A DNA stretch of 32,111 nucleotides, from assembly GCA_007693555.1 (NCBI GenBank), contig REDJ01000120.1:1-32111 (forward strand), given 5' to 3'. The translations under genes and the position numbers were made by a program. The notes beneath the pieces were generated by a model that saw only the letters and a list, made by a program, of their open reading frames with translations, searched no databases and was not told the DNA's origin. Shown in pieces: positions 26,930 through 32,111 of this stretch. Position 1 is the first letter of the stretch. Every line of letters begins with the position of its first letter. The DNA comes from Bacteroidota bacterium. GTDB lineage: Bacteria; Bacteroidota; Bacteroidia; Bacteroidales; UBA7960.

Positions 26930-28255
26930 TTATTCTTTTACAATTTTTCTTATACTATTTTGTCCGTTTAGAAAATAAACTTTTACAACATACAAGCCGG
27001 GAATCATATGTTCAAATAATAATTTCGCATTCAAATCCATTACTTCAATCCTGTCAATAATTTGGCCATGCATATTATAAATTTTAATCCATTCGATTTT
27101 CATTTCTGATTCTATCATCAAAGAAACGGAAACAGGATTAGGAAAAAGTTTAACGGATGATTCTGAAGATTTTTTATCCGGTATACTCACTGCATCACAG
27201 AAAAGATCATTTACATATTCCCATATTGCATCATTAAGCATATAAGGAACCAAAGAGCCATCCGGTGATTCACCCATTCTTATCCAAACCATATTCTCCG
27301 AAGGAGTTACATTCAAAATCTGTCCGTTCATACCCAGGGCTGAAATCATGTCGGGTGGAGCATTGGGGCTTAAGAAGCCATCAAAAACCAATTGAGTCTG
27401 TGGCACCATATATGACGATTTTCCATTTAACCACCATAAATAGCCGTATGCTTCATTGATTGATTGGGATGTGGTTATCATCTGGTTGAAATAGGCAGTA
27501 TCTGACATAATTGTATTACCATTCCAAATCCCGTTATTAAGTATGAGCAAACCGAAACGAGCCATACTTCTTGCGTTACTGAAAAAAACATTGTTATACC
27601 CTAAATCAACAAATGCGCCATTCATTCCTGTGGGAACTTTCAGTTTTTGATGTGTATAAAAATTGGGTGTAAAACCTGTCGCATTTTCAATAACATTACC
27701 CAGTAATGTATAAGGCGCATTATGATAGGCCCATCTTGTACCCGGTTCAGCTTTGTATATCAGACAGGTATCCAGAGTACAAATGCCTTCCTCCACTTCA
27801 TCATCCAGTCCGGTGGTCATGGTAAGCTGATGCCAGATAGTAATTTGTGCTTCCTGTTCGGGAGTTGTGGCTGTCCAGCCTTCACCCAGGTAATCAGAAG
27901 TGGAATCGTGAATGTTAAGATAATTCTCCTGTTGTGCCATTCCTACCATAAAAGCCGTAATTGTTTTTCCGGCTGAAGCCCAATACCAGTTATCGTTTTG
28001 TTCAAAATCTCCGAAATATTTCTCAAGGACAATCTTGCCATCTTTCAGCAGTATAAAGGCCTTGCTGTTATTTGAATCGAGAAAATCATAAAGAGTTTCA
28101 ATTTTATCATTGCACCAACCCAGCGAGTTTGGTGAAAGAGTATCCCAGTTGTCGCCGGTTACAGGAGGAAAATACAATTCCTGACTCATGCCCTGAAACA
28201 AAATTAAGGTTGCAAAATAAAATGTAAGGACGGCTTTATAAAACTTTTTATGCAC
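26930..28255 (-). CDS. secreted serine hydrolase (beta-lactamase/class C-like) with T9SS type A sorting domain
   Basis: A 441-residue exported protein. A signal peptide about 1-25 (hydrophobic AVLTFYFATLILF, cleavage near GMSQ) leads to a class C beta-lactamase/DD-peptidase fold. The catalytic SxxK is SAGK (S94, K97, in WYWASAGKTITAF), and the second motif YxN is YHN (Y177, N179). The family covers esterases, D-amino-acid amidases and penicillin-binding-like enzymes, so the substrate is open. The last 75 residues or so are a type A sorting domain (KLFPNPVSVSL..., IKIYNMHGQII, MIPGLYVVKV, IRKIVKE), predicting type IX export and surface anchoring. The only start that fits is GTG: TAA lies in frame immediately before it, and the next ATG would cut into the signal. 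The upstream bases are a queE remnant, so the original start region may have been altered. Confidence 0.9.
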   Translation of the reverse strand: MHKKFYKAVLTFYFATLILFQGMSQELYFPPVTGDNWDTLSPNSLGWCNDKIETLYDFLDSNNSKAFILLKDGKIVLEKYFGDFEQNDNWYWASAGKTITAFMVGMAQQENYLNIHDSTSDYLGEGWTATTPEQEAQITIWHQLTMTTGLDDEVEEGICTLDTCLIYKAEPGTRWAYHNAPYTLLGNVIENATGFTPNFYTHQKLKVPTGMNGAFVDLGYNNVFFSNARSMARFGLLILNNGIWNGNTIMSDTAYFNQMITTSQSINEAYGYLWWLNGKSSYMVPQTQLVFDGFLSPNAPPDMISALGMNGQILNVTPSENMVWIRMGESPDGSLVPYMLNDAIWEYVNDLFCDAVSIPDKKSSESSVKLFPNPVSVSLMIESEMKIEWIKIYNMHGQIIDRIEVMDLNAKLLFEHMIPGLYVVKVYFLNGQNSIRKIVKE

Positions 28256-28487
28256 TTAGAGAGATTATTTAATTATATGAATTTACAAAACATTGAACCA
28301 GAGTCAACTTTAAACTGGAAAAACTTAATTATCTATTTTAAATCAGATTGTTATTTGAAAATAAATATGCCATTTGTAAAAATATATTATAATCAAATCC
28401 TGATTATAAATCTCTGTCTGATGATTATTAGTATTTTGAAATTGCCATTTTTTTTACGACGCTATAAAGGGAGAAGCAATTACTCTT
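28256..28487 (+). pseudogene. decayed 5' remnant of queE with its upstream region
   Basis: The segment aligns along its whole length with 29402-29636, the promoter region and first 40 or so codons of the intact queE. AATTTACAAAACATTGAAC (28280-28298) is identical to 29425-29443. ATGCCATTTGTAAAA (28367) corresponds to the queE start ATGCAATTTGTAAAA (29511). Codons at 28449-28481 read FFYDAIKGEAI against FFYDTIQGEGI at queE 30-40, with 8 of 11 identical. Between these, small deletions and an in-frame stop break the frame, and the -7 box (TAAATTTG in queE) is changed to TAAACTGG. The remnant stops where the convergent thuA gene ends. It lacks the radical-SAM cysteines and cannot encode a working enzyme. 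Confidence 0.85.
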
Positions 28488-29244
28488 TTTTTCCGGCAGT
28501 CCACAAAATTGCACCTTTTAAATGCTTGATAAAAAGTGAATCAGAATAAAGTTCTTTTGGATGACCCAGTGCCGTTTGAAAAATAATTCCCTGCCCAACA
28601 TGTTTGTACCATACCAATGGGTGGTCACCCTTAAGATGACTAACACCATGAAACCATTCGTTATAATCGACTTCATAACTAAATTCATCAATGGAGATAA
28701 GTACATACACATCTTCTCGCGGGTTGCGGTCAAAAAAGTACCATTCGTCTTCAATTACCCAGATTGAATCAGGAAAAAAGGCAGTGGACGGGTGGTTCCT
28801 GTCTTCAATGATAAGCTTGCCCTCCTGTACGGGTGGATGACCAACGAAAACCGCGCCAAGGTTGTCAATATACCATTCCCATTCATTTTCTGTAACGGTG
28901 CCTGTATGAATGGTTAGCAAGCCTCCTCCTTGCTCAACAAAATGTTCAATGGCCTGTTTTTGGTCATCGTCAAAAATATTTCCCGTGGTTTGCAGAAAAA
29001 TGATCAGGTCCAGGGTGTCCAGATTATCTTTTGTGAAAAAAACCGGGTCTTCAGTATGATATAATTGCCAGTTATTTTCTTTTGCAAGGTTTTTAATTAC
29101 ATTTACTGCAAGGGGAATATTATCGTGTCGGAAACCTTCGGTTTGGGTGGTTACGGCTATGTTCATTCTTTCTTTATCTGATTGTGGTGTGCATGCTGTC
29201 ATTGCTAATAGCAGCAATAAAATACCGGTTATAATTCTTTCCAT
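28480..29244 (-). CDS. ThuA-like lipoprotein
   Basis: A 254-residue protein of the ThuA family, which has a class I glutamine amidotransferase-like fold. A type II signal ends in the lipobox MTAC (C18), so it should be a periplasmic or surface lipoprotein. Family blocks are TEGFRHDNIPLA (35-46), LDLIIFLQTTGN, FVEQGGGLLTIHTGT (102-116), VFVGHPPVQEGKL (132-144), DEWYFF (166-171) and HPLVWYKHVGQGIIFQTALGHPKELY (208-233). ThuA proteins are linked to sugar metabolism (trehalose utilisation, 3-keto sugars), but the reaction of exported Bacteroidota members is not established. No transporter or dehydrogenase lies beside it. Its 3' end abuts the queE remnant and its 5' side faces intact queE, so it sits inside a rearranged locus. 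Confidence 0.85.
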   Translation of the reverse strand: MERIITGILLLLLAMTACTPQSDKERMNIAVTTQTEGFRHDNIPLAVNVIKNLAKENNWQLYHTEDPVFFTKDNLDTLDLIIFLQTTGNIFDDDQKQAIEHFVEQGGGLLTIHTGTVTENEWEWYIDNLGAVFVGHPPVQEGKLIIEDRNHPSTAFFPDSIWVIEDEWYFFDRNPREDVYVLISIDEFSYEVDYNEWFHGVSHLKGDHPLVWYKHVGQGIIFQTALGHPKELYSDSLFIKHLKGAILWTAGKKE

Positions 29245-29401
29245 TTGTATAATTGTTCGCCAATTTTAATTGCTAAATAATCTTTTTGGTTTTAATGGCA
29301 ATTTGTTTGTCTTTTTCCCGTATTTATTGTTTTAAAGGGTACTTTCTTCAAGCAGAGGTTATTAAATATAATGCGGAATAGCTTTTACATATATTATGTT
29401 C

Positions 29402-29636
29402 AAAAGACTATTTTTAATTATGTAAATTTACAAAACATTGAACTTGTGTCTGCTTTAAATTTGATAATCTTAATTACCTGGTTCAAATCAACCTGTTTTC
29501 TATTATTACTATGCAATTTGTAAAAACGATAATATCATCACATCCTGATTTTAAAAAGCCCCTGCCCGAAGATGTTCCCTTTCTTGAAATAGCAGAATTT
29601 TTTTACGACACCATACAGGGAGAAGGAATCAATCTT
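29402..29636 (+). repeat. intact copy of the sequence duplicated at 28256-28487
   Basis: The region upstream of queE and its first codons forms a direct repeat with the decayed copy about 1.15 kb to the left. The unit between the two copies is thuA with its upstream bases. This copy keeps an open reading frame and a -7 box. Confidence 0.8.
29456..29463 (+). promoter_or_regulatory. -7 box of queE
   Basis: TAAATTTG fits TAnnTTTG and predicts a leader of about 43 bases. The TTG at 29438-29440 is only 15 bases upstream, so the -33 element is unsure. The box is destroyed in the remnant copy. Confidence 0.4.
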
Positions 29637-30278
29637 GGACAACCTGCTGCTTTCCTCAGAGTACAGCATTGCACGCAAAACTGCTGGTGGTGCGACACCA
29701 AAGAGGTATGGAGAGCCGGGAATCCTTATACTTTTGAAGAACTATGGAAATTGATTTACCAGACCGATTTGGTGAGCAAACTGCGCAGCGGACAACATCT
29801 GATACTCACCGGGGGAAGCCCTATGAAACAACAAAAAGGACTCACCCTTTTCCTTCAGTCCTTTAAAGAAAGGTACGGCTTTAAGCCATTCACCGAGATC
29901 GAAAATGAATGCACGCTGATGCCCGATCCGGAGTTTACCCGGCTTATCGACGTATGGAACAACAGTCCCAAACTCAAACACAGCGGCAACCCTGACAAAC
30001 TTCGATATCAGCCTCCAATCATCAAACATCTTTCTTCGCTTGAAAATGCCTGGTTTAAATTCGTAGTAGCCCAGGATGAAGACTGGGATGAGATTGAAGA
30101 ATCGTTCCTGAAGCCCGGTTTAATAAAACGAACTCAAATCATCCTTATGCCGCTGGGTGGCACCCGCGAAGGGCTGCACAGAATCAGAAATACCGTTGTT
30201 GAGATTGCTGTAAGGGAAAGCGTTCGCTATTCATCAAGAGAGCATATTGAGTTGTGGGATAGGAAGACGGGGGTTTAG
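29511..30278 (+). CDS. queE: 7-carboxy-7-deazaguanine synthase (QueE)
   Basis: A radical-SAM enzyme of 255 residues, predicted to convert 6-carboxy-5,6,7,8-tetrahydropterin to 7-carboxy-7-deazaguanine in queuosine synthesis. FFYDTIQGEGINLGQPAAFLR (30-50) is the family opening, with GEG and the substrate-binding Arg. The cluster motif CTQNCWWC (C54, C58, C61) is CxxxCxxC. The SAM segment is LTGGSPMKQ (99-107), with GGSP where many radical-SAM enzymes have GGEP. EIENEC stands for the usual ExE/N block. No queC, queD or queF gene is near, so the pathway must be completed elsewhere. A decayed duplicate of its first part lies at 28256-28487. The start is set by the ATG shared with that copy. Confidence 0.92.
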   Translation: MQFVKTIISSHPDFKKPLPEDVPFLEIAEFFYDTIQGEGINLGQPAAFLRVQHCTQNCWWCDTKEVWRAGNPYTFEELWKLIYQTDLVSKLRSGQHLILTGGSPMKQQKGLTLFLQSFKERYGFKPFTEIENECTLMPDPEFTRLIDVWNNSPKLKHSGNPDKLRYQPPIIKHLSSLENAWFKFVVAQDEDWDEIEESFLKPGLIKRTQIILMPLGGTREGLHRIRNTVVEIAVRESVRYSSREHIELWDRKTGV

Positions 30279-30464: not shown

Positions 30465-31508
30465 TTAAGGTCTCTCTGCCAGTACATAGTTAGCCATAGT
30501 AATGAAATAGTCATTGATGATCCCATAAATATCAAACCACTCCCATATAATAATTTTTCTTGGATTTTCCGGGCGTTCTACCCATCTACCATCAAGGAAT
30601 ATGGGGGCGGGATGCTGGTATTGTTCTCCCCAATTGGGGTTTTTTACAATGGCCACGGCAGCCTGATCAAACAAGGATCTGGCCGGAGGATCACCCCACA
30701 TTTGGTAATGAGTGAATAAATCAACTGAATAATCTCCCCAATTGTAAAATTCTCCTCCATGCCTTCCGGTGACCGGCTCATCAATTTGGGGTCCCTTGCC
30801 TGGCATACGATGAAAAATCTGCGCCTGGGTTACTTTCACGGCATCGGTTCCGGAGGGGTCGCCATAGCGAACAGTTACCATTTCGAAAGAAACATCCAAA
30901 TCAAGAATATAATTCATGGAAGGAATGTCCCAGTCCTGGTTGTGCTCACCTGGTTCGGGGTAGTTGGAGCCCAACCATACAATGCGCAACCTTTCGGCAA
31001 TAAGCGGCTCTTTAAGCAAGGCCAGGGCAATATTTGTAAGCTTACCAACGGGTAGCAGGATAAGCTCCTGGTTGCGCTCGCGCATGGCCTGCTCAATGAT
31101 AAAGTCCACCGCTTCATGGCCGTCGAAGTCGGGCTGATCAATAAAGGGTCTGATCTCTTCAAAGGAGCCTTGCGCACCGGTCAGCAGGGGAATGCGATCG
31201 AAAACACCGCACAGTTGCATAACCCGTTTGGCTTCGTCGTAATGGTCGCTCACAGGCGAAAAGGTATCGTATCCGTCAGGATCGCTGGTGGCATTAACGG
31301 TTACCCCTTCCACAGCAAAATAATCGCCATTGAATAGCAGGTAGGCAAGGGCATGCTGATCGTCCACCTCATTATTGGCGTCGGTATCGAAGATCACATG
31401 ATAGCGAATGACTTTTTCTTCTGTTTGGTCATTGCTATTAGCGCAGGAGGTTGCCAGAAATACAGGTAAAAAAAGAAGGGCCAGGGATTTGAAATAAGGA
31501 GTTTTCAT
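30465..31508 (-). CDS. nucleoside hydrolase superfamily lipoprotein
   Basis: A 347-residue exported protein with a type II signal ending in the lipobox ATSC (C22). The mature N-terminus carries the calcium-binding aspartate cluster of nucleoside hydrolases in the variant form FDTDANNEVDDQHALAYLL (D41, D43, D49, D50). Two residues are inserted relative to the classic DTDPGxDDA, resembling the DUF1593-type spacing. Further family features are VEGVTVNATSD, ELILLPVGKLTNIALAL (the helix after the ribose site), RIVWLGSNYPEPG, and DQAAVAIVKNP at the position of the late catalytic segment. It should split N-glycosidic bonds of nucleosides or related ribosides outside the inner membrane, but substrate choice cannot be read. 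It lies 102 bases downstream of a probable glycoside hydrolase gene in the same direction and may be co-expressed with it. Confidence 0.85.
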   Translation of the reverse strand: MKTPYFKSLALLFLPVFLATSCANSNDQTEEKVIRYHVIFDTDANNEVDDQHALAYLLFNGDYFAVEGVTVNATSDPDGYDTFSPVSDHYDEAKRVMQLCGVFDRIPLLTGAQGSFEEIRPFIDQPDFDGHEAVDFIIEQAMRERNQELILLPVGKLTNIALALLKEPLIAERLRIVWLGSNYPEPGEHNQDWDIPSMNYILDLDVSFEMVTVRYGDPSGTDAVKVTQAQIFHRMPGKGPQIDEPVTGRHGGEFYNWGDYSVDLFTHYQMWGDPPARSLFDQAAVAIVKNPNWGEQYQHPAPIFLDGRWVERPENPRKIIIWEWFDIYGIINDYFITMANYVLAERP

Positions 31509-31610
31509 TTTTAATTGGGTTAAGTGAGTAAAATTATTTTTCTGGATGTCAGTATTTGATGCAGGATTATTTGGTGAATTATTAATTGTGTAATTGGATT
31601 TATCGTGGGT

Positions 31611-32111
31611 TCATTCTAAAACTTTAATCACTGCCACGTACGACCTGTGATCTTTGGGCGTAAGTGTGATGATGCGTTGTGGGCCCCACGAGTCGCTGCC
31701 ATCGTAGTTGTCCCACTGGGGTTCGATGATCTCCTCTTCACTCCAGGTGAGGCTTGCAACATCAAGCCATTTCACCGAAGCTCTAATCGTATGCACCCAT
31801 GGATCCAGATGGACCGTGGCTCTTCCCCCGGGAAAATAGACGGCATATTCTTTCCCCAGATTGGCCATGCAGTATGAATCTACTGAGTTGCCTAAAGTTG
31901 AAAACGCTTCATAGGGCTGGGCATTGAAAATGTCGAATTCGTCAAGGAACATGTTTACCGCGCGCAGGGTTTGCTCTGCCCTTTCGGAGAGTCCAATTCC
32001 CCAGTAAAAATCGCCACCCCTGTGAGCGGGCCTGTGAAAACGTGTGGATGCAGCCCCTCCAAAAATATTTCTCCAGAAACGTTCTACAGCTTCTTTTTCA
32101 GTTCCTGCCGC
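31611..32111 (-). CDS. C-terminal part of a probable glycoside hydrolase with collagen-binding-like domain (partial)
   Basis: An open frame from the right edge of the window to a TGA at 31611 encodes at least 166 residues and has no start inside the window; the internal ATG at 31952 is not the start. The upstream part (RFWRNIFGGAASTRFHRP, then GIGLSERAEQTLRAVNMFLDEFDIF) looks like the end of a TIM-barrel catalytic domain. The tail (SYCMANLGKEYAVYFPGGRATVHLD..., VKWLDVASLTW) resembles the collagen-binding-like beta domain found at the end of DUF4038/GH140-type enzymes in Bacteroidota. The catalytic residues are outside the window, so enzymatic function and substrate remain open. It is co-directional with the nucleoside hydrolase-like lipoprotein gene. 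Confidence 0.6.
   Translation of the reverse strand, partial: AAGTEKEAVERFWRNIFGGAASTRFHRPAHRGGDFYWGIGLSERAEQTLRAVNMFLDEFDIFNAQPYEAFSTLGNSVDSYCMANLGKEYAVYFPGGRATVHLDPWVHTIRASVKWLDVASLTWSEEEIIEPQWDNYDGSDSWGPQRIITLTPKDHRSYVAVIKVLE

Follow-up and report, generated by a model that had tools for sequence, protein, structure and literature searches.

Partial duplication of a gene followed by decay of the surplus piece is a known kind of event in bacteria, in which the truncated copy loses its reading frame, gathers stop codons in the old register and changes evenly over the codon positions. The locus described here belongs to this kind, with a decayed duplicate of the start of a queE-like gene beside intact copies of thuA and queE, and nothing essential sets the duplicate apart from such bacterial cases. 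The locus also resembles the duplication-random loss model, with which it shares a direct repeat, one truncated copy, an altered gene order and a remnant at the old place. The literature on that model, in the parts of it drawn on here, deals mostly with animal mitochondrial genomes (PMC5745709, PMC4223735), whereas the present locus lies on a bacterial chromosome. Among the literature matches listed, none concerned this locus.

The whole stretch of DNA analysed, here called the window, is 32,111 nucleotides long. From left to right, the locus consists of serBL (minus strand, 26930–28255), encoding a protein of the serine beta-lactamase family with a Por secretion tail; a repeat copy, L; thuA (minus strand, 28480–29244); a second repeat copy, R, with queE (plus strand, 29511–30278); and IUNH (minus strand, 30465–31508), of the nucleoside hydrolase family. 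The thuA gene is intact (Pfam ThuA, 1.7e-60); its end agrees to within one residue with those of its orthologues in three members of the genus (G004, G005 and G009), and it is represented by a single match in its own genome. The queE gene, also intact, encodes a QueE-like radical SAM protein of 255 amino acids, to which the NCBIfam QueE models give scores under their cut-offs; nine of the eleven other genus members contain matches of 73–92% to it, and another genus of the family contains one of 56%. The same genome encodes a second QueE-like protein, of 218 amino acids (G000:C122; L002:1141-1797), which reads TGGEP where the 255-residue protein reads TGGSPMKQQ and which is taken as the canonical QueE.

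The repeat copies L (plus strand, 28264–28487) and R (plus strand, 29410–29636) are direct repeats lying 1144–1146 nt apart, R comprising the queE upstream region and the first 42 codons of the gene. By blastn, 28268–28487 aligns with 29413–29636 at 74.7% over 225 columns (E 1.2e-34). The local alignment of 28256–28487 with 29402–29636 scores 160, against a mean of 21.8 and a maximum of 36 for dinucleotide shuffles, and none of 2000 shuffles reaches that score; the repeat of the queE upstream region and first 40 or so codons, proposed in an earlier sequence-only reading of this DNA, is thereby borne out by the shuffling test suggested along with it. The start regions read ATGCCATTTGTAAAA in L and ATGCAATTTGTAAAA in R, and FFYDAIKGEAI faces FFYDTIQGEGI in the queE register with 8 of 11 residues identical, both as that reading had them, letter by letter. 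The 19-base block it singled out is indeed identical but not remarkable, as, among simulated 222-column alignments with 77% identity, 29% contain a run of at least 19 identical bases. A direct-repeat search of the whole window (seed 12, minimum length 40 nt) returned the L/R pair as the sole family, with a gapless core of 85 nt at 79% and a spacing of 1145. The left edge of L lies at about 28264, and the homology ends on the right at about 28479–28487, abutting or overlapping the thuA stop codon (28480–28482) by a few bases. An extension of the repeat into the start codons of serBL was rejected as marginal: at 60 nt, the best of five lengths tried, 39–51 of 1000 shuffles did as well, depending on which of three scorings was used.

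The former coding part of L, which runs from the original start codon to where L meets thuA (plus strand, 28367–28487), has lost the queE frame through deletions of 1, 3 and 1 bases relative to R, and the part upstream carries two extra bases. The codons TAA and TAG interrupt L in the old queE register only; from its own ATG (28367) the frame is open, because the first deletion shifts it into a 99-residue ORF (28250–28549) unrelated to queE. Upstream of queE, R carries a candidate -7 box, TAAATTTG (plus strand, 29456–29463), with a TTG 18 nt upstream, identified by what we take to be the consensus; this box reads TAAACTGG in L. The decay described in the earlier reading is thus upheld for the deletions and the altered candidate box, and for the stops in the old register alone. 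Mismatches between L and R number 24/101 upstream and 27/121 in the coding part, the latter spread over the three codon positions without bias (10/41, 8/40 and 9/40). With the frame lost by deletions and the differences from R equal at all codon positions, L is almost certainly a dead remnant of the queE start. It shows homology beyond chance, loss of frame and closest kinship to the intact copy of its own genome, the marks of a queE pseudogene.

That kinship was examined with a tree of the coding part (126 columns; 11 rows, namely L, R and nine genus relatives), in which L and R form a clade with an SH-aLRT support of 95.8. Branch lengths are 0 for R and 0.46 for L, the zero branch partly reflecting selection on R, which adds to the asymmetry. 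The two copies differ at 27 sites, and at the 26 of these with a majority base in G002, G004 and G009 that base agrees with R at 19, with L at 3 and with neither at 4. Because L and R are sisters and the nearest relatives agree with R at most of these sites, L appears to be a decayed copy of the queE of its own lineage, or of a near sister, and not an older, divergent queE. The upstream region points the same way: over a 135-nt stretch the L–R pairing scores 82 (z 18.9, 60 shuffles), and against ten other rows z is at most 1.4 for R, which matches none of them, and at most 2.9 for L (G017), which matches none clearly; the stretches of G002, G004 and G009 match one another. In this comparison the stretch of L was set 3 bases too far right and takes in its ATG, that of R being correct; the offset is absent from the repeat alignment, the codon-position counts and the coding tree. 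In the trees of queE and recA alike (the names recA, rumA, bcp and nth were assigned by reading sequences), the window falls into a group with G002, G004 and G009 (support 99 and 98), indicating that R is no distant import. The two trees differ in the order inside the group: the queE tree joins the window to G009 (81), and the recA tree places it outside G002 and G009 (95).

Of the two histories offered by the sequence-only reading, a past duplication of the queE 5' region is consequently supported by the significance of the repeat, the pattern of decay and the sister clade. The other, in which an incoming segment with thuA and queE took the place of an older queE, is weakened, since L and R are most closely related to each other in the coding and the upstream part alike; nor does it gain from the comparison of queE with a species tree that had been suggested for it, recA placing the window in the same group.

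The split between L and R would be about as old as the species, a weak dating that fits duplication within the lineage and a source in a sister species alike. In total, L and R differ at 51/222 positions, fewer than the fourfold-site differences of R to G002 (33/92), G009 (36/92) and G004 (38/88), with Fisher p values of 0.025, 0.005 and 0.0008, in a comparison between unlike kinds of sites. Set against the G002 value, third positions alone (9/40) give p 0.16, and the upstream part alone (24/101) gives p 0.08. The upstream divergence equals that among G002, G004 and G009 (22–27 of 107–109), so that a sister-species source for R fits too. For comparison, rumA differs from that of G009 at 43/168 fourfold sites, the low end for the nearest relative.

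Among the nine other genus genomes with this queE, the order is HD-queE in five (G002, G003, G004, G008 and G009), recA-queE in two (G005 and G011) and HD-serBL-queE in G006, and in G007 the left neighbour of queE is another gene. None of the nine has thuA ahead of queE, and in none did blastn find a second queE start, the two features for which the earlier reading had pointed to relatives. The presence of serBL beside queE in G006 suggests that the left flank of L is undisturbed, and the idea that the event explains the GTG start of serBL at the repeat edge finds no support. Judging from this one genome, L seems to occupy the former site of queE, next to serBL.

Close orthologues of thuA (68–79%) are present in G004, G005 and G009. 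The G004 orthologue is found 6 kb downstream from queE, beyond several other genes; the two are oriented to each other as in the window, and thuA adjoins a C-terminal piece of IUNH (84 residues, about 70%). The frame holding this piece (155 residues, L088:3578-4045) begins with an unmatched N-terminal stretch followed by the 84 residues, and is likely a truncated gene. In G009, thuA lies 4.6 kb downstream of queE, without IUNH, and in G005 on another contig; the flanks of thuA show no homology to those in these three genomes. A thuA gene beside IUNH was found only in G004, and not in G005, G009 or five wider regions outside the genus. Of 295 genomes, 21 contain a match to IUNH, counting the one described here. 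The seven best other loci (L103–L109), scanned together with some 1.5 kb of flank, contain no thuA match, and no pair appeared in wider regions around three of them (L123–L125), on the entire 5.5-kb contig of a fourth (L122, G083) or in the surroundings of a distant thuA (L126, G053). A general thuA-IUNH linkage in the order was dropped, no pair having been found in the IUNH loci scanned beyond G004. The order queE-thuA-IUNH is therefore seen among relatives in G004 alone, with other genes between queE and thuA.

Two further observations concern the surroundings of queE. In G017 there is a second, broken queE-like piece (L042; C252:2373-2605), in which the match to residues 4–47 adjoins that to residues 215–253, the pattern that an internal deletion would leave. 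Relatives carry bcp no more than a few kb after queE; in the present genome bcp and nth are on another contig (G000:C208 14001-43400; L101, L102), adjoining a run of genes that by eye resemble carbohydrate-use genes. It is probable that queE, on the 30465–32111 side, has been parted from bcp by a large insertion or rearrangement.

The explanation favoured, and as a whole a probable one, is that L is what remains of queE at its old place and R belongs to the working copy, through duplication and loss. The ancestral order would have been serBL-queE-thuA-IUNH, and duplication and loss would have turned it into serBL-queE'-thuA-queE-IUNH, the duplication having taken place in this lineage, or in a sister very close to it, and having left the working copy on the far side of thuA. 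The old copy would then have lost everything past about codon 42 by a deletion ending at the thuA stop, and drifted. That the duplication took place in this clade is quite likely; the route of queE past thuA is put at even chances. Either queE-thuA was duplicated in tandem, the 3' part of the first queE and the second thuA being lost afterwards, or queE was copied directly into the thuA-IUNH gap, with one loss. The duplication-random loss model needs a second thuA, of which the locus bears no trace: the queE-IUNH gap holds no remnant of it or its upstream region (74 and 248 of 500 shuffles as good), which speaks mildly against the tandem route. The joins of the event would lie at the left edge of R and at the thuA stop. 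The earlier reading was right that the remnant ends within a few bases of that stop, but duplication alone does not explain this; the end is merely the site of a join.

Among other explanations, an insertion of thuA at the start of queE with partial duplication, in a single illegitimate or Campbell-type event during which queE never moved, is unlikely but fares best. One such event yields a truncated copy, an insert and a full copy in direct orientation, and the join of L with thuA falls a few bases at most from the thuA stop. However, the longer ORFs of the window (six searched with Pfam, the rest inspected by eye) yielded no recognisable integrase or transposase, and the position of thuA next to the IUNH fragment in G004 makes queE look like the newcomer, so that, going by this one genome, a copying of queE past thuA is likelier than an arrival of thuA.

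Slightly less probable still is the entry by recombination, at the queE locus, of a sister-species segment with thuA and queE, which would make L the native start and R the donor queE. The upstream divergence, as large as between sister species, would suit it, and the broken queE-bcp neighbourhood suggests that other DNA probably entered nearby. Against this stand the sister relation of L and R and the shared grouping of queE and recA, notwithstanding the different inner order, and a donor with thuA left of queE would be needed, an arrangement present in 0/9 relatives.

An assembly artefact joining two related genomes of the metagenome is highly improbable: the assembly comprises 247 contigs and has 4.33% contamination, but the identity between L and R is only 75%, L decays in a neutral pattern, and the flank to the left, as far as serBL, has retained the order typical of the genus. 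Equally improbable is a retention of L for a function, such as a serBL promoter or a regulatory RNA; serBL starts at its edge and its upstream half is present, yet upstream and coding parts diverge equally from R, the candidate -7 box is altered, and a riboswitch or other RNA in the repeat was dropped because the four weak Rfam matches in 28000–29800 all fall far below their gathering scores. A mobile element with a long target duplication would call for a recombinase gene between the repeats, and the sole gene recognised there is thuA.

Most likely, then, L is an ordinary remnant of a local duplication that altered gene order, with nothing out of the ordinary about it. A more far-reaching view, that the chromosome is caught in the middle of duplication and loss, with queE moved past thuA and the old copy still unerased after roughly the time since the species split, is possible but somewhat doubtful. 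The locus teaches nothing new about the function of queE or thuA; it offers a small and clean instance of local gene-order change in bacteria, and shows apparently unselected sequence persisting in a genome.
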